This document shows positions 46,078 through 54,882 of a DNA stretch of 64,000 nt, one piece after another. The position numbers and the translations under genes were made by a program. Source of the DNA: Planctomycetota bacterium (GTDB lineage Bacteria; Planctomycetota; Phycisphaerae; UBA1845); assembly GCA_016208685.1 (NCBI GenBank), contig JACQXM010000015.1, forward strand, positions 1 through 64,000, given 5' to 3'. A model generated the notes under the pieces. The model was given only the letters and a program-made list of their open reading frames with translations. It was not told the DNA's origin and did no database searches. The stretch's first letter is position 1. Every line of letters begins with the position of its first letter.

Positions 46078-49000
46078 CTAGCCGCCGGTTCCCAGTTGCG
46101 AAAGCGCGGCCAGCGAATTCTGCTGATCCTGAAGGGCGGCGAGCGAAGACTCCAGCGCCGCGAATTGCGCCTCCAGACGGGCGCGCTTGGCGTCCAGCAG
46201 CACGTTGAGTCGTCCGATCTGCTCCGCCAGAAGGTCCTTCTGATCCTGAAGGAGCTGCTCCTTGCGCGCGATGATTCCGTCGCCGTCGCGGGTTAGGTCG
46301 TCGAAGGCGCTTTGCACTACGGCCCCGAACCCGGTTCCTTCCGCGGTGAACAACCGCTCCACCTGCTCCGGCGAGTCGGCGTACACCTCGCGGAACTGCT
46401 CCTTGTCGAACGTCAAACGGTTGCCGGAGAATCGAACCCCGATGCCGCTGAGCCGGTTGAGCGAGCTCCCCGCGCCCTGAAACGTGCGCGCGGGCAGACG
46501 CGTCAGCCGCTCGCGCACCAGATTCACCGTCGCATCCCCGAACAGCGGACCACGCTCCAGCGTGTCGGCGTTGAAACTGATCGCCTCGTCGATCTGGGCC
46601 TGCGCGTCGTTGTAGCGATCCACGAAAGTCTGCACGCGCTCCACCAGTGCGTCGATGTCCTGAGCCACGGTCACCGTGACGTCCTCGTCGCCGGCGCCCA
46701 GTAGTTGAAGGGATACACCTTCGACCACGCCCTCCAGGGTGTTCGTGGGGCTGGAGACCACCAGCGGGCTGGCTCCGGCGCCGCCCAGCGTCACCACGGC
46801 GTCGCGCGCCTGGGACAGCGTCTCCAGGCCCAGGTCCAGCCCTTCGCCCACGAGCAGCAGTTCGCCCGGCCGGCCGGAGACCGACGAGGTGACGGTGAGG
46901 CTGAAAGGGTTCACGGCGCCGCCGGCGTTCACGACCGACGCGGAAAGCAGGCCCCCGGCAGCGTTGAGCTTGGCAGCGATATCCCGCAGCGTATCGGCGG
47001 CGCCGATGTCGATGCGCGTCTCCAGCGTGCCGTCGATGAAGGCCTCGCCGCTCCGCGCCGTCCCCGCAAGGCGCAGGTCGGCGGCGGCCCGTCCGCCCTC
47101 CTGGTCCTCGACCTTGAGCGCCGCGGTACCGCCGGCGCGGTCCACGAGCAGCAAACCGTCGCCGGTGTCGTTGATCCGCGCCTCGACGGCGCCCGAGGTT
47201 TGCAGGTTGATGACGTCCAGCACTTCGCCCACGGTCTTGAGGTTCGAGGCCAGCACCACGCTGTGCACCACTCCCGCGGAGTCGGTGATGCGGACGGTGC
47301 CCAGGCTTCCGGCGATCGCGGCGTTGATGTCCGTCAGTTTGCTTTGCCGGGAGATGTACTGAAGTTGCAGGTTCCCGCTGTCGGCCCGCGCCCCGGTTGC
47401 CCCGTCGAACGTCCCGGCAATGCCCAGGTCGGCGGCCAGCGTGCCGCCGACATCCGCGACCACGAGCGGACCCGTGCCCCGAGAGCCGTCGGAGAGCACG
47501 ATGCCGCTGCCCGTGCTGTTGATGGCGGCGGTCACCGAGGTGGCGGCGTCGGCATTGATCAGGTCGACGACGTCCTGGAGCGTTGCGGCCTGCGAAAAGT
47601 CGATGGTCGTTGACTGCCCCTGTCCGTCGGTGAGCGCCACCGAGCCGGCGCCAACGCCCCGCCCGCCATTCAGCGAGCGCAGCAGCACGGTGTTGAGTCC
47701 GCCCACCAGCCGGCGGGTCTGGAACGGTCCGCCGTCGGCGCTGAAGGCGGCGCCCGCCAGCCCCAGGTCGGCCGCGGTCGTCGATCCCTGCCCCGCCGAA
47801 ACCGTAACGTTGTTTCCCAGGCCTTGGGCCGCCAGCGTGATGCCCTTGCCGTCGTCGGAGATGCGCGCTCGCACGAAGTCGGCATTGCCCGCGGCGTAGT
47901 TGATGGCGTTGATCACGTCGCCCACGCTGGCCACGCGATACACGTCGCGTCCGCGGATGGCGTTGCTCTCCACGTCCGCGGCGATGCCCAGATCGGCGGC
48001 GGCGAACCCCTGCACGTCTTCCACGATGAAGTGCCCCGCGGTCGTGCCGCCGGCGTTGGTGTTGTCGGTGAGTTGAAAGGCGGAATTGGCCATGGCGATG
48101 CTCACCGAGACCCCGGCGGCCGTGGCGGAGTCGTTGATGCGGCGCCGAACGTCCTCGGCGGTGCGCACCGGCGCCTGGTTGGGGTCTGCAAGGTCGATCT
48201 CTACCGACTTGTGGTTGCGGTCCGTGATGCGGATTCTGCCCAGTCGCACGCCGTTGCCGCTGTTGAGGGCCCGCAGATCAGTGCTCGGCCGCAGGACATC
48301 GGTCAGCGCGACGCCGAAAGTCCCGAACGAGGTGGTGAACGTCAGGTCGTCGAGCGTGGAGCCAATCGCCTGCCGCCCGACGCCGTTCCCGTCGTTGAGC
48401 GCGGAAAGGAGCGTGGCGGGCGTGAGTCGGACCAGGTCGTGTCCGTCGATGCGTGCCCCCGCTGCGTTGGCTGCCAGCCCCAGGTCCCGCGCCGTAAAGC
48501 TGCCCGGCTTGTCGGCGATGATCAGATGGCCGCTTCCGCCGGAGGTGTCCTCGATGACGATGCGATCGCCGGTGGCGCCGTTTTCCGCCAGACCCGTCAC
48601 CCGGGCTCGGACGCCGACGCGGGTTTGAGTGTTGATGGCGGCGAGGATGTCTTCCACGGTGAAGGCCTTGGACAGGTCGACGTCCGCGGAGACGCCGCTA
48701 CGGTCCGTGATGGTAATCGTGCCGCGGCGCACGCCCTCACCGCCGTTAAGGGCCGCCAAGGGTGTCCCGCGATCCACCCGGCCGCGGCCCACCTCGATGG
48801 TGATGCGCCCCGTGCCCACGGGCGTGCGATCGGCGTCGGCATATCCGCGGCTGATGAGCGAATGGTTGGTCACCAGGGAATGCACGCGGAAGGTATGGCT
48901 GCCCGGCGTGGCCGACCGCGAGGCGGTGGCGGTTGCGATCGCCTCGTTGCTGCTCTTCACGGAAAAGCGCTGGAAGAAGGACGGGTCGTCGAAGTCCTTG

Positions 49001-49185
49001 ACCGATTCCTGGAGTGCCAGCAGCTTCCCGGAGAGTTCCAGGATGGCCGCCCGCTGGGTGTCGAGGTTCGTGGATCGCCGTTGCAGGTTCTGCACCGGCC
49101 GGGCTTCGATCGCCATGAGCTGCTCGATGAGCTTGGCGGTGTCGATCCCCGATATCAGCCCTATCCCGCTGGTTATGCCACTCAT
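46078..49185 (-). CDS. fliD: flagellar filament capping protein / hook-associated protein 2, expanded
   Basis: MSGITSGIGLISGIDTAKLIEQLMAIEARPVQNLQRRSTNLDTQRAAILELSGKL; C-terminal LSGIGVRFSGNRLTFDKEQFREVYADSPEQVERLFTA; internal hook-IN-like repeats. Confidence 0.92.
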   Translation of the reverse strand: MSGITSGIGLISGIDTAKLIEQLMAIEARPVQNLQRRSTNLDTQRAAILELSGKLLALQESVKDFDDPSFFQRFSVKSSNEAIATATASRSATPGSHTFRVHSLVTNHSLISRGYADADRTPVGTGRITIEVGRGRVDRGTPLAALNGGEGVRRGTITITDRSGVSADVDLSKAFTVEDILAAINTQTRVGVRARVTGLAENGATGDRIVIEDTSGGSGHLIIADKPGSFTARDLGLAANAAGARIDGHDLVRLTPATLLSALNDGNGVGRQAIGSTLDDLTFTTSFGTFGVALTDVLRPSTDLRALNSGNGVRLGRIRITDRNHKSVEIDLADPNQAPVRTAEDVRRRINDSATAAGVSVSIAMANSAFQLTDNTNAGGTTAGHFIVEDVQGFAAADLGIAADVESNAIRGRDVYRVASVGDVINAINYAAGNADFVRARISDDGKGITLAAQGLGNNVTVSAGQGSTTAADLGLAGAAFSADGGPFQTRRLVGGLNTVLLRSLNGGRGVGAGSVALTDGQGQSTTIDFSQAATLQDVVDLINADAATSVTAAINSTGSGIVLSDGSRGTGPLVVADVGGTLAADLGIAGTFDGATGARADSGNLQLQYISRQSKLTDINAAIAGSLGTVRITDSAGVVHSVVLASNLKTVGEVLDVINLQTSGAVEARINDTGDGLLLVDRAGGTAALKVEDQEGGRAAADLRLAGTARSGEAFIDGTLETRIDIGAADTLRDIAAKLNAAGGLLSASVVNAGGAVNPFSLTVTSSVSGRPGELLLVGEGLDLGLETLSQARDAVVTLGGAGASPLVVSSPTNTLEGVVEGVSLQLLGAGDEDVTVTVAQDIDALVERVQTFVDRYNDAQAQIDEAISFNADTLERGPLFGDATVNLVRERLTRLPARTFQGAGSSLNRLSGIGVRFSGNRLTFDKEQFREVYADSPEQVERLFTAEGTGFGAVVQSAFDDLTRDGDGIIARKEQLLQDQKDLLAEQIGRLNVLLDAKRARLEAQFAALESSLAALQDQQNSLAALSQLGTGG

Positions 49186-49498: not shown

Positions 49499-51178
49499 AT
49501 GATGGGAGCTTCGGCGACGCTGGCTTCGGTCACGGACATCGGCCTGTACATCAACCCGATCAAGGCGGCGGTGGTGGTGGTCCTGCTCTTTGCCTGGGCC
49601 GCCGCGGTGCAGTGGATCGACCGCGACACCGACAAGGTCAAGACTAAGCGCGAACATTGGAACATGATCGTGATGGCCGGCTCCTTCGTCGGCTTTCTCG
49701 TGCTCTTCATCCCCCCCTGGAGCGGCGTCCTGTTCGTCGGCGGCGTGATTGCCTGGCTGCTGATCACCGGGGGCGCGGTGGTCGCCTATGTGGTGCACCG
49801 CAACAGCCGCGTGGTTCCCGCGGCACGGGTACTTACGTTAACCCACTTCAAGCGGCTGGCGCGGGGCGGCGCCGATAAGAAGAAAGCCACCACCGACAAG
49901 GGCATCCGCGTGCGGCTGGCGGATCACAAGGGCAACGCGCTCGCGTCCCCGGAGGACCCCGACGAAGCGAAGTCGTTCAATCTGGTTCAGGACTTCCTTC
50001 ACGAACTCCTTTGGCGGCGGGCCTCGGATGCCGAGCTGCGCCCGGAGAAGGAGCGATACAGCCTCTTCTACCGCATCGACGGCGTCGAAACACCCAACAG
50101 TGAGGGCATCGCCACCGAGGACGGCGAACGGATCATCCGCTACCTGAAGCGCGCCGCGGGGGTGAACGTGGAGGAGATTCGCCGCCCACAGAGCGGGCGC
50201 ATACGCACGGCGCTGCTGAGTCACGCCGGGGATCTGGGCATCACCGAGGTTCGTACTTCGGGCAGCACGGCCGGAGAACGCCTGCAACTACAGCTTCAGG
50301 CTGGCGCATCGCTGCTGCGACTGCACGAATTGGGCATGGCGCCGCAGCGGCTGGAGGGCCTCAAGAAGGAGGTGCTCGCCAAGCACACCGGCCTGCTGCT
50401 GGTCAGCGCCCCACCGCAAAACGGGCTGACCACCACCCAGTACGCCATCCTGCGCGGGCATGACGCCTACATGCACAACATCCACACCATCGAGCGTCGC
50501 CGCCTGGTGGAACTGGACAACATCACGCAACAGATCTACGAAGGCAGCAACACCGACGTGAATTACGCCCGCATGCTGCAATCCATCCTGCGGCGCGAGC
50601 CGGATATCGTCATGGTAGGGGAATGCGAGGACCGCGAGACGGCGCAGATCGCCACCCGGGCCGCGGCGGACGACCGCAAGATCTACCTGGGCATCCCCGC
50701 CCGTGACAGCTTCGAGGCCCTCTCCAAGTACCTGACGCACGTGGAGGACAACGCCCTGGCCGCCAAGGCGCTGCGCGGCGTGCTCAACCAGCGGCTGGTG
50801 CGGATTCTGTGCCCCGAGTGTCGCGAGGCCTTCAAGCCGGACGAGGCGACCCTCAAGAAGCTCAACCTCCCCGCGGACAAGATCGAGAAGTTCTACCGGC
50901 CGCCGACGGAACCCAAGTTCGACAAAAAGGGCAAGCAGATTCTGTGTCCCAAGTGCCAGGGCACCGGTTACTCCGGCCGGGTGGGAATCTTCGAACTGCT
51001 GATCGTTGATCCCGCGGTCCAGGCGATGATCGCCGAGGGTGCGGCGGTGAACAAGGTGAAGGCGCAGTGCCGTAAGAACAAGATGTACTACCTTCAGGAA
51101 GAGGGACTGCTGAAGGTGATCGACGGCACCACCAGCATGCAGGAAATCCTCCGCTGCCTGAAGCTGGGGGAGAAGTGA
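49499..51178 (+). CDS. membrane-anchored GspE/PilB-like (T2SS/T4P ATPase family) protein with degenerate nucleotide-binding motifs
   Basis: N-terminal TM segments; SLFYRIDGV; ILRREPDIVMVGECEDRETAQIATRAA; LNQRLVRILCPECREAF...CPKCQGTGYSGRVGIFELL. Walker A position reads APPQNGLTTT rather than GPTGSGKTTT. Confidence 0.88.
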   Translation: MMGASATLASVTDIGLYINPIKAAVVVVLLFAWAAAVQWIDRDTDKVKTKREHWNMIVMAGSFVGFLVLFIPPWSGVLFVGGVIAWLLITGGAVVAYVVHRNSRVVPAARVLTLTHFKRLARGGADKKKATTDKGIRVRLADHKGNALASPEDPDEAKSFNLVQDFLHELLWRRASDAELRPEKERYSLFYRIDGVETPNSEGIATEDGERIIRYLKRAAGVNVEEIRRPQSGRIRTALLSHAGDLGITEVRTSGSTAGERLQLQLQAGASLLRLHELGMAPQRLEGLKKEVLAKHTGLLLVSAPPQNGLTTTQYAILRGHDAYMHNIHTIERRRLVELDNITQQIYEGSNTDVNYARMLQSILRREPDIVMVGECEDRETAQIATRAAADDRKIYLGIPARDSFEALSKYLTHVEDNALAAKALRGVLNQRLVRILCPECREAFKPDEATLKKLNLPADKIEKFYRPPTEPKFDKKGKQILCPKCQGTGYSGRVGIFELLIVDPAVQAMIAEGAAVNKVKAQCRKNKMYYLQEEGLLKVIDGTTSMQEILRCLKLGEK

Positions 51179-51254: not shown

Positions 51255-53123
51255 ATGTGGCTATCGCTGCTGATGCTGGTGCTGGTGCTCGGCGTCGCCT
51301 TCTTTCAGTCGACGCTGGGGTTCTTCAGCGCTCTGATCATGACGGTGCTGACCCTGTGTTGCGCCGCCGCCGCCGTGGGCACGCACGAATGGGTGGCCAT
51401 CAACTGGCTGGCGCCCCTGTGGAAGCCGGACTTCGCCCACGCCATCGCCCTGGCGGCGATCTTCGGCGTGCCGCTGATTGCCTTCCGTTTCACCTTCGAT
51501 CAGCTCATACGCCGCGCCTGCCTGCTTCCGGCATGGGTGGACCGCATCGGCGGCGCCTTCTGCGGCATCATCACCGCGCTCACCCTGGTGGGGGTCATGG
51601 CGCACGCCCTGCAAGCCGTGCCTTTCGGCACCACGATCCTGGGCTTCGCCCGCGTAGAGGTTCCCGCAAAAACCCAGCCGGAGGGCGGTGATCCGCCCAA
51701 ACCGCCGGATGTGGCGGCGCCGGAGCGGGAACTTTGGCTTTCCCCCGACCGTTTCGCGATCGGCGTCGCCTCGCTGCTTTCGTCGGGGGTGTTCAGCGGA
51801 GACAAGCTGCTCGCCGCCGAGAACCCCGACCCGGTGCAGGCGCTGGGGTGGGTGAACACCACTCACCCCGAGGTGTCGCGCGTGGCGCAGCCCAACTCCA
51901 TCGCCGTGGTGCGTTCCGGCGTGGTGTCGTACGTCTATCACTACACGGAAGGCGACCCGCGGCGCGGGGAACAGACCAAGTACGACGCCGTATCACCCAA
52001 GGCCGGGCACGAGTTCCGCATGTTGCGCGTGGCCCTTCGCGACGAAGCGCGGGATGCGCGCAAGTCGCACGTCTTCACCATCCGTCAGTTCCGCCTGGTC
52101 GGCACCCAAGGGCCCGACGGCCCCCTGGCGCAGTACTTCCCTACCGCCATCCAGCAGGAGGACGCCACGCAGACCACCAACCGTCACATCTGCACCAAGA
52201 TGACGAACTGGGGCAAGTGGCCGGTGGTCGACGAGATCTACGCGCCGCGCGACGAATCCAACGAGGTCGAGGTCGTGTACGAACTCCCCACCGCCTTCAA
52301 GCCCATGTACCTCGAGTACAAGCGCGGGGCGCGGTTCGCGCTGGCGTCGTTTGACATCAAGAGCCGCGACGCGGGGAACCGTCCCAGTGCGGGCGAGACA
52401 GAGACGCCGCATGGCGGAACCACTGCGGCTGCCGGGCAGCCCGCCGGCGGCTCCGCAGCGCCGGCACCGGCTCCGGCGCCACCCCCGGACCGCCGGCGCC
52501 GGCGCGGCGAGCCCGAGACCGTGCCCACCACCGGCTCCGGCGGCGTGCGCCCCGTCCGGGCGCAGACCGGCGGGTCGACGTTCGGCGACGAACTGCCGCT
52601 GACGCTTACCTCGTACCGGTCGCTGAAGGACCTTAACCTGGAGAAGGGCAAACTCGGTACCGGCCACCTGGTCGCCATGCTGGACGAGCAGGATGGCGGC
52701 ACGCAGCCGCCGGTCAGCCACTTCGCCGTCCCCGCCGACAAGCGGCTGCTCCAGCTCAGCGTAAGCCGCATGCAGGCCAAGAGCGGCATCGGCAAGGTGC
52801 TGGACCTCGCCGCCACCACGGCGCAGTCCTACTTCGTGCAGGACACCAACGGCACGCGCTACTCGATGATCGGCAAGTACGTGCGCGCCACCGTCGAGGG
52901 CGTCCCCATGCTGGAAGTGCAGTATTTCCCCGAACAGGCGGGTTCGATCGGCGGGCTGGGGCCGTTCCAGGACATCAAGGACCGCCATCTGCAAAGCGGC
53001 GAGTACGATTACGTGCTGCTCTTCCTGGTAGATCCCGGGGCCAATATCGTGACCCTCGCCGCCGGCGGGTCTGCTGCCCGCCAGGACGACCTGAGCGGCG
53101 AGAACCTCACCGCGCCGCCGTGA
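51255..53123 (+). CDS. multi-TM N-terminal (CvpA-like) protein with large C-terminal soluble domain
   Basis: MWLSLLMLVLVLGVAFFQSTLGFFSALIMTVLTLCCAAAAVG...ALTLVGVMAHALQAVP; same strand, 76 bp downstream of the GspE-like gene. Confidence 0.75.
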   Translation: MWLSLLMLVLVLGVAFFQSTLGFFSALIMTVLTLCCAAAAVGTHEWVAINWLAPLWKPDFAHAIALAAIFGVPLIAFRFTFDQLIRRACLLPAWVDRIGGAFCGIITALTLVGVMAHALQAVPFGTTILGFARVEVPAKTQPEGGDPPKPPDVAAPERELWLSPDRFAIGVASLLSSGVFSGDKLLAAENPDPVQALGWVNTTHPEVSRVAQPNSIAVVRSGVVSYVYHYTEGDPRRGEQTKYDAVSPKAGHEFRMLRVALRDEARDARKSHVFTIRQFRLVGTQGPDGPLAQYFPTAIQQEDATQTTNRHICTKMTNWGKWPVVDEIYAPRDESNEVEVVYELPTAFKPMYLEYKRGARFALASFDIKSRDAGNRPSAGETETPHGGTTAAAGQPAGGSAAPAPAPAPPPDRRRRRGEPETVPTTGSGGVRPVRAQTGGSTFGDELPLTLTSYRSLKDLNLEKGKLGTGHLVAMLDEQDGGTQPPVSHFAVPADKRLLQLSVSRMQAKSGIGKVLDLAATTAQSYFVQDTNGTRYSMIGKYVRATVEGVPMLEVQYFPEQAGSIGGLGPFQDIKDRHLQSGEYDYVLLFLVDPGANIVTLAAGGSAARQDDLSGENLTAPP

Positions 53124-53168: not shown

Positions 53169-53429
53169 CTACGGTTCGATGAGCCGCTCGCGAATCGCCC
53201 AACGCGTCAACAGAGCGAGATTGGTCAAGCCCAGCTTCCGCGCCGCCTGCTGGCGGTGCGTCTCGGCCGTCCGCGGCGAAATCGACAATCGGCGGGCAAT
53301 GTCGGCCAGCGAGTGACCCTCCGCCAGCATGCGAACCACCTGAAGCTGGCGGGGTGTCAAATCCGGCAGTTTTTTCCCTTGCACCCGGGCACCTCCCGAA
53401 CAGCGCGCACCTCGCGCGCCAATGTTCAA
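53169..53429 (-). CDS. single-domain LuxR/GerE-type HTH regulator
   Basis: LTPRQLQVVRMLAEGHSLADIARRLSISPRTAETHRQQAARKLGLTNLALLTRWAI. Confidence 0.92.
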   Translation of the reverse strand: MNIGARGARCSGGARVQGKKLPDLTPRQLQVVRMLAEGHSLADIARRLSISPRTAETHRQQAARKLGLTNLALLTRWAIRERLIEP

Positions 53430-53547: not shown

Positions 53548-54882
53548 CTACGCGGCACAAGGAGCCACGGAATTCCTTCCTAGCTTCTTGGCGCGGTACA
53601 GGGCCTCGTCCGCCCGGGCGAGGAGCTCGGCGGCGGTGACGGCGGACGCGGTCTTTAGAGAGGCAACTCCTGCGCTCATCGACGGAGGACGCTCGGTGCC
53701 CAGCGTCGAGGTGTATTGCTTGAACAGCCGGATGATGCGTTCCGCCACTTCGCCGGCCTGCTGACCTCCAGCGCCGGGAAGCACGAGCAGGAACTCGTCG
53801 CCTCCGTAGCGAATGGCATGGTCCATAGGCCGCGTGGCCCCGCGAAGCAGTTCGCCGATGAACGCCAGCACTTCGTCGCCCGCCTGGTGCCCCTGGGTAT
53901 CGTTGTGGTGTTTGAAATGATCGACATCAATCATGACCACCGCCAGGTCTTCCATGCGCGCCCGCTGGGCGGCGATTAGCGACTCGAGCTCGCGGTCCAG
54001 GAAGGCTCGGTTGCGCAGCTTCGTGAGCGGGTCGATGGTGGCTTGCTCCCGCGCGCGGCGAAGCTGGCGATCGAAGCCCGCTTCGCGTTCGCGGAGCTGC
54101 CACTGGGCATCGCGCTCAACCCTCGCGGCCCGGGCCGAAGCCAGTGCAAGATCGTGTGCCAGCGTCCGAAGCTGCTCCTCTGCGGCGGCCAGCTCCCGGA
54201 GCTGTCGTGTGGACTGGGCCGCGCCGTCCTGCTCCGCAGGGTCGCCACCCCAATTCCCTGCCACCCGACGCACGGGATCGGACAACCATTGCAGCGGCGC
54301 GGCGATCCTCCGATCGCACCACCGCCGGAGGGTCGCCGCTGCCACGGCGAGCGCCAACCACACACTCATCGCTCCGGCGCCCGCCGCCCAGAGAGAGGCC
54401 TCGAGCGATGAATCAGAACGGAGCAGCACCACAACCTGCCGCGGGACCAGCGACTGCGGTCCGTCCAGTGGAACCGCCAGGGCTCCCACTGGCTGGAGAA
54501 CGCCCAATACCGGCGCTGTGGCCGTGACTACCTCGCCCTTGGATTGGAGTGCCTGCGCGGCGGCCGCGCGATACGACGGATCGTCGGGGTACACGGCTCG
54601 GACCTCGCCCGCGGCCGTCAGTTCGGCGACGGCGACGAGCCGATCGAAGGTGGCGCGGAGCTCGTCCACGGCCTCCGCCAGCCCGCCCGCGGGGGCCTCG
54701 CGCAAAACCGCAGCGCTGATACGCGCCTGCTCGGCGACGTAGGCGGCCGATTGCCGCTGCTGCAGCTCATGATTGATGACGCCGAAGGCGATGCCGCCCG
54801 CAAGAGCGACTGCCCAGTTCCGTCGGCGCAAGGCGTCGCGAAACGCCGCTTCCAGAGTTGGCAGGGCGTCGGAGGCAGGCAA
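53548..54882 (-). CDS. membrane-associated GGDEF diguanylate cyclase
   Basis: ATIDPLTKLRNRAFLDRELESL, VVMIDVDHFKHHNDTQGHQAGDEVL, YGGDEFLLVLP; RPMD five residues before GGDEF fits an inhibitory I-site. Confidence 0.96.
   Translation of the reverse strand: MPASDALPTLEAAFRDALRRRNWAVALAGGIAFGVINHELQQRQSAAYVAEQARISAAVLREAPAGGLAEAVDELRATFDRLVAVAELTAAGEVRAVYPDDPSYRAAAAQALQSKGEVVTATAPVLGVLQPVGALAVPLDGPQSLVPRQVVVLLRSDSSLEASLWAAGAGAMSVWLALAVAAATLRRWCDRRIAAPLQWLSDPVRRVAGNWGGDPAEQDGAAQSTRQLRELAAAEEQLRTLAHDLALASARAARVERDAQWQLREREAGFDRQLRRAREQATIDPLTKLRNRAFLDRELESLIAAQRARMEDLAVVMIDVDHFKHHNDTQGHQAGDEVLAFIGELLRGATRPMDHAIRYGGDEFLLVLPGAGGQQAGEVAERIIRLFKQYTSTLGTERPPSMSAGVASLKTASAVTAAELLARADEALYRAKKLGRNSVAPCAA

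Follow-up and report, generated by a model that had tools for sequence, protein, structure and literature searches.

Motor ATPases of the GspE/PilB extension type (PF00437; PDB 1p9r, 4ksr, 5tsh, 5oiu) combine an N2 and C-terminal ATPase fold with a tetracysteine zinc motif and a C-terminal domain, and are treated as ATP-driven by definition. There are precedents for motor roles apart from hydrolysis: Myxococcus xanthus PilB has a signalling role (PMC5544727; reviewed in PMC11656802), Vibrio cholerae PilT supports extension of the MSHA pilus with no hydrolysis of its own (reviewed in PMC11656802), and PilU works only through PilT, yet needs its own Walker motifs (PMC6762196). PilB of M. xanthus and PilT of V. 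cholerae are, however, both active ATPases in the wild type, and none of the three proteins is naturally degenerate and membrane-anchored. In the archaellum, FlaH acts beside FlaI, a motor of the PilT/GspE superfamily, as an ATP-binding, non-hydrolysing partner; having a KaiC-like fold and no membrane anchor, it offers an analogy to the protein described here without implied homology.

Here we describe a class-wide, degenerate member of the GspE/PilB group that departs from this definition, encoded in a window of 64,000 nucleotides (contig JACQXM010000015.1) from a planctomycete of the class Phycisphaerae. It shares the fold, zinc motif and C-terminal domain of GspE/PilB ATPases, but has lost the P-loop lysine and most catalytic residues and carries three predicted membrane helices in place of the N1/MshEN domain. 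PilT and PilU belong to the same superfamily, and a PilT-type gene is a common upstream neighbour; they differ in having functional Walker motifs and in lacking both the zinc motif and a membrane anchor. Anchored GspE-like proteins of two other families of Planctomycetota (f50 and f57) have the same N-terminal membrane region and domain order (HHalign over residues 12-554, 34% identity) and a similar neighbourhood, with a CvpA-like gene downstream in most and PilT upstream in several, but their Walker A, Asp box, Walker B and His box are intact. No description of the pseudo-ATPase family was found in the literature searched, which lay mostly outside subscription journals, and this is not proof of novelty.

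The interval to which the original prediction drew attention (50408-50641) corresponds to residues 304-381 of a single uninterrupted open reading frame, whose GC3 of 0.86 is on par with that of real genes of the same genome (Table 1). Its product has a GspE/PilB fold: Pfam T2SSE exceeds its cut-off of 24.9 bits by a wide margin, and a Foldseek search with a structure model of medium confidence (mean pLDDT 66, pTM 0.43) returned PilF (5oiu, E 5.1e-30) as the top match, followed by PilB and EpsE. Equivalog cut-offs are missed by far, at 229 against 630.25 bits for GspE (TIGR02533) and 191.9 against 675.65 for PilB (TIGR02538). Pfam finds no MshEN domain in the 559-residue protein, whereas the domain is present in five of the canonical proteins that the genome encodes; three hydrophobic helices, recognised by hydropathy and in the model, stand N-terminal to the ATPase domain instead. 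Positive charges in the loop that follows helix 1 point to an N-out orientation with a cytoplasmic ATPase domain, and a signal-peptide-like stretch at the start of some f57 and f50 orthologues agrees with this predicted topology. The genome encodes six canonical GspE/PilB-type proteins, so that the pseudo-ATPase need not be its motor; T2SSF platform genes are found elsewhere in the genome.

Table 1. Features of the pseudo-ATPase gene and its downstream neighbour (window coordinates)
Feature	Position	Strand	Basis
Membrane-anchored GspE/PilB-like pseudo-ATPase, 559 aa	49499..51178	+	Open frame; Pfam T2SSE 170 bits; 100% self match; full-length orthologues in relatives; GC3
Predicted TM helix 1, residues 20-41	49556..49621	+	Hydropathy >1.6; helix in model
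Predicted TM helix 2, residues 51-70	49649..49708	+	Hydropathy; model
Predicted TM helix 3, residues 76-102	49724..49804	+	Hydropathy; model
T2SSE (PF00437; GspE/PilB core ATPase) domain, residues 156-552	49964..51154	+	Pfam; fold search matches PilF/PilB/EpsE, best E 5.1e-30
Degenerate Walker A APPQNGLTTT, residues 304-313, Leu310 for Lys	50408..50437	+	Alignments
Degenerate Asp box IHTIERRRLVELDN, residues 328-341, retaining Glu332 but not Asp-Pro	50480..50521	+	Alignment; literature mapping
Walker B region REPDIVMVGECEDRET, kept in part, residues 366-381; Glu375 present here though not across the family, following Arg lost	50594..50641	+	Alignment
Degenerate His box, residues 391-403, TGH...H to DDR...P	50669..50707	+	Alignment; literature mapping
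Zinc motif, first C-x2-C, Cys438 and Cys441	50810..50821	+	Kept in 149/151 and 147/151
Zinc motif, second C-x2-C, Cys483 and Cys486	50945..50956	+	Kept in 149/151 and 149/151
Gene for CvpA-like membrane protein of 622 aa, with four helices predicted at the N-terminus, then beta-rich regions	51255..53123	+	Synteny; Pfam; low-confidence model

What has become of the catalytic machinery? Read in order, the region gives S-APPQNGLTTTQ, HTIERRRLVELDNITQ, IVMVGECEDRET and YLGIPARDSFEAL. The exchange of the P-loop lysine for leucine, claimed from the motif alone, is borne out by residue-level alignments with Thermus PilF and with an intact-motif orthologue, both of which set Leu310 exactly at the lysine. 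APPQNGLT does not match the Walker A pattern GxxxxGK[ST], and a second, intact Walker A, which would have spoken against degeneracy, is found nowhere in the 559-residue protein. Lysine occupies this position in none of 151 distinct Phycisphaerae orthologues, being replaced by Leu (49), Val (40), Arg (28), Ile (13), Thr (5), Met, Ala and Gln (4 each), Ser (2), or His and Gly (1 each). A study of Geobacter PilB assigns Mg binding to E357 of the Asp box, catalysis to E395 and the His box to H413 and H420 (PMC5424180). The spacing of the last three residues (18 and 7) equals that of our columns 375, 393 and 400. On this assignment, the Mg-binding glutamate has been kept while the catalytic glutamate and the His box have decayed across the Phycisphaerae orthologues. 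The Asp box is degenerate as described in that its Asp-Pro is lost (Asp in 3/151), but its first glutamate, E332, persists in 148/151. The Walker B-like motif, reported as kept, does contain E375 in the window protein; this residue is however present in only 38/151 orthologues, and the arginine two positions further on, a glutamate here, in 8/151. The His box reads R393 and P400, with histidine in 17/151 and 13/151, respectively. Arginines of the N2 domain at columns 190, 192 and 250, invariant in active members, are mostly lost as well; column 250 could not be equated with a particular PilB arginine finger, because its spacing misfits R271/R286. In contrast to the catalytic motifs, the zinc site is retained as predicted, each cysteine being found in 147-149 of 151 sequences. 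Loss of the P-loop lysine is by itself no proof against ATP binding or hydrolysis. As judged from the alignments, however, catalytic residues are lost jointly while the remaining protein stays constrained, with fold, zinc site and C-terminal domain strongly conserved; this is the selective loss proposed at the outset, and pseudo-ATPase status, then called likely, is strongly supported at the level of sequence.

Orthology searches show that the degeneration is not peculiar to the window. Nearly all of 60 relatives searched first contain a full-length orthologue including the N-terminus, separated by a clear score gap from canonical GspE/PilB paralogues, and 143 of 150 sampled Phycisphaerae genomes carry one (best match 1e-76 or better; the other seven give weaker, canonical-type matches only). 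Degenerate motifs in an uncultured assembly might have stemmed from a sequencing error, a recent strain-specific mutation or a decaying pseudogene. This explanation is refuted by conservation over 151 orthologues and retains practically no probability, since the loss is common to all of these sequences, their length has been preserved along with zinc site and C-terminal domain, and GC3 is of the coding type. Whether the substitution extends across Planctomycetota, as the original prediction asked, has a mixed answer: lysine is lost in Phycisphaerae and in the anchored orthologues of families f91 and f100, but kept in the full-length anchored orthologues that the phylum sample contains in f50 and f57, and the replacing residue varies. 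The intact motifs of f50 and f57 read CGPTGAGKSTTLY or TGPTGHGKTTTLY, EDPVEY, GEIRD, and HAND or HASD. Homologues with GKT at the same position, which had been named as a possible sign of local mutation or error, therefore do exist, but they mark an active ancestor instead. Trees computed without the active-site columns unite the Phycisphaerae sequences in a single clade (SH-aLRT 99 in one tree; 99/97 in another) and place one intact-motif f57 sequence outside the group of f50, f91/f100 and Phycisphaerae (98/92), which makes the intact motifs ancestral. On this branching order, the loss is derived from an ancestor that had intact motifs and already bore the N-terminal anchor, in support of the suggested repurposing; the roles suggested along with it, a structural subunit or a sensor, are putative. 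The two dead groups are joined with support of 58/9, and a tested alternative is not clearly rejected (p-AU 0.07), so the trees put the number of loss events at one or two. Record CP070718.1 contains the C-terminal part of an apparent second copy (L052:5815-6387, +), which adjoins a masked run of Ns and is followed by a CvpA-like gene; this fragment was set aside and possibly marks an assembly seam.

Might the protein still handle nucleotide? One rival reading takes it for a sensor, which would bind Mg-nucleotide without hydrolysis and inform the CvpA-like protein, by way of its membrane helices, of the cell's energy or signal state. Gly309 (151/151), Thr/Ser311 (148/151) and Glu332, the counterpart of Mg-binding PilB E357 (PMC5424180), are among the most conserved positions despite the catalytic losses, and for this reason nucleotide binding is the leading rival. 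We nonetheless regard the sensor as rather doubtful, because the phosphate-gripping lysine is gone, Thr306 survives in none of the 151 sequences and Gly307 in 49, the N2 arginines are mostly missing, and the retained residues may be structural only. WNK kinases work with a displaced lysine, and basic residues at columns 393-394 might conceivably stand in for the P-loop lysine in the same manner, yielding an unorthodox but active ATPase. Column 393, the position of His413 in the PilB His box, holds Arg or Lys in 105/151 orthologues and column 394 in 101/151; the residues found there in active members are His and Leu/Met, respectively. Such conservation is too low for an essential catalytic residue, and the catalytic glutamate, the His box and other arginines are lost too, which leaves this option very improbable.

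Beyond what the original prediction covered, the protein has three N-terminal hydrophobic helices, a CvpA-like gene downstream and, in many loci, a PilT-type gene upstream. In a sample of 41 neighbourhoods of about 7-20 kb each (26 kb for the window), clustering places a CvpA-like gene immediately 3' of the GspE-like gene in 35, and in four further loci a short hydrophobic downstream frame was recognised by eye. Pfam Colicin_V (PF02674) scores 17.2 bits with the 622-residue window protein, under the cut-off of 29.3, which two homologues pass (L126, 34.7; L141, 45.3); a model of the window protein is of low confidence (mean pLDDT 51) and too weak for a fold search. CvpA is an inner-membrane protein with four to five transmembrane segments and of uncertain function, required for bile-salt resistance in enteric bacteria (PMC6705877). 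The Phycisphaerae forms differ from this family by about 450 extra residues past the membrane part. Most of them (L117, L126 and others) measure about 550-660 residues; those of f50, f100 and similar families measure about 200-250.

In 26 of the 41 loci, from several classes and including the active-form families, the next gene upstream encodes a PilT-type ATPase with an intact Walker A; in some loci hisF precedes it. In the window genome this position is taken by fliD on the opposite strand, and the displaced PilT orthologue is found at G000:C6:213057-214145, where it has 74% identity to a syntenic PilT and groups with it. Two more PilT subtypes occur in that genome (G000:C42:6885-7979 and G000:C6:106829-107878), the latter flanked by two canonical PilB-type genes. 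The upstream association, together with the dependence of PilU on PilT (PMC6762196), would fit an accessory subunit in type IV pilus or type II secretion machinery, with the pseudo-ATPase as membrane cap or regulator of a PilT-type motor. Several observations make this unlikely. PilU requires its own Walker motifs, unlike the pseudo-ATPase; the conserved neighbourhood of the 41 loci showed no gene for a pilin, a platform protein or a secretin; and nine genomes with the pseudo-ATPase contain only lower-scoring PilT subtypes and none of the adjacent type, although these assemblies are possibly incomplete. Conversely, in one genome the adjacent PilT subtype is matched with a high score (G241:C2:823410-824495, 527 bits), and no anchored GspE-like protein came up there in the phylum search. 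The nine genomes rule out PilT as an obligatory partner and leave the CvpA-like gene as the steadier one. In two loci of family f8 (L121:6856-8604 and L123:7011-8729, both +), an FHA-domain GspE with intact motifs stands between the PilT-type gene and the pseudo-ATPase; seen in f8 only and placed outside the anchored clade, it was rejected as an active anchored paralogue.

How might a dead motor be put to use? Loss of catalytic residues, an anchor of its own, a CvpA-like neighbour and a seemingly working version in sister lineages together suggest a former motor that now serves as a non-motor component. We favour, with a probability of roughly one half, a membrane-anchored, catalytically dead GspE/PilB derivative that partners the CvpA-like protein as a scaffold or switch and draws on PilT for energy where PilT is present. 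The sequences show that an anchored GspE/PilB-type ATPase with intact motifs gave rise to a Phycisphaerae lineage in which the P-loop lysine was lost and, for the most part, the catalytic glutamate, the His box and several arginines as well, while fold, zinc domain, C-terminal domain and anchor stayed conserved. The protein may still assemble as a ring or part of one, tethered to the inner membrane by its own helices, although the loss of several N2 arginines invariant in active members counts against ring assembly. Without hydrolysing ATP, it could serve the CvpA-like product of the adjacent gene as a scaffold or a conformational switch; this partnership is deduced from gene adjacency, which is not proof of interaction. 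Where PilT of the neighbouring type is present, this active ATPase might supply energy to a shared complex, a coupling that cannot be general, as the nine genomes above have no such subtype.

A more specific and distinctly tentative extension, which we think improbable as it stands, would be a class-wide nucleotide-gated switch: a motor-derived inner-membrane assembly that holds Mg-nucleotide through the retained Gly, Thr and Glu, does not hydrolyse it and controls the CvpA-like protein. If true, the PilT/GspE motor superfamily would have a pseudoenzyme branch that can be compared with active orthologues still in existence. A conserved, membrane-bound and catalytically degenerate member alongside intact orthologues of the same architecture in sister lineages amounts to a natural experiment on ring roles beyond hydrolysis. 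Moreover, across Planctomycetota a motor-derived protein is linked to the poorly understood CvpA family, so that a role for both genes becomes testable.

The window contains further genes of note around the pair. The FliD-like gene directly upstream of the pseudo-ATPase (46078-49185, - strand) is unusually long at 1035 residues and contains flagellin IN motifs. Just beyond the CvpA-like gene lie a short LuxR-type helix-turn-helix frame (53169-53429, - strand) and a GGDEF diguanylate cyclase gene (53548-54882, - strand).
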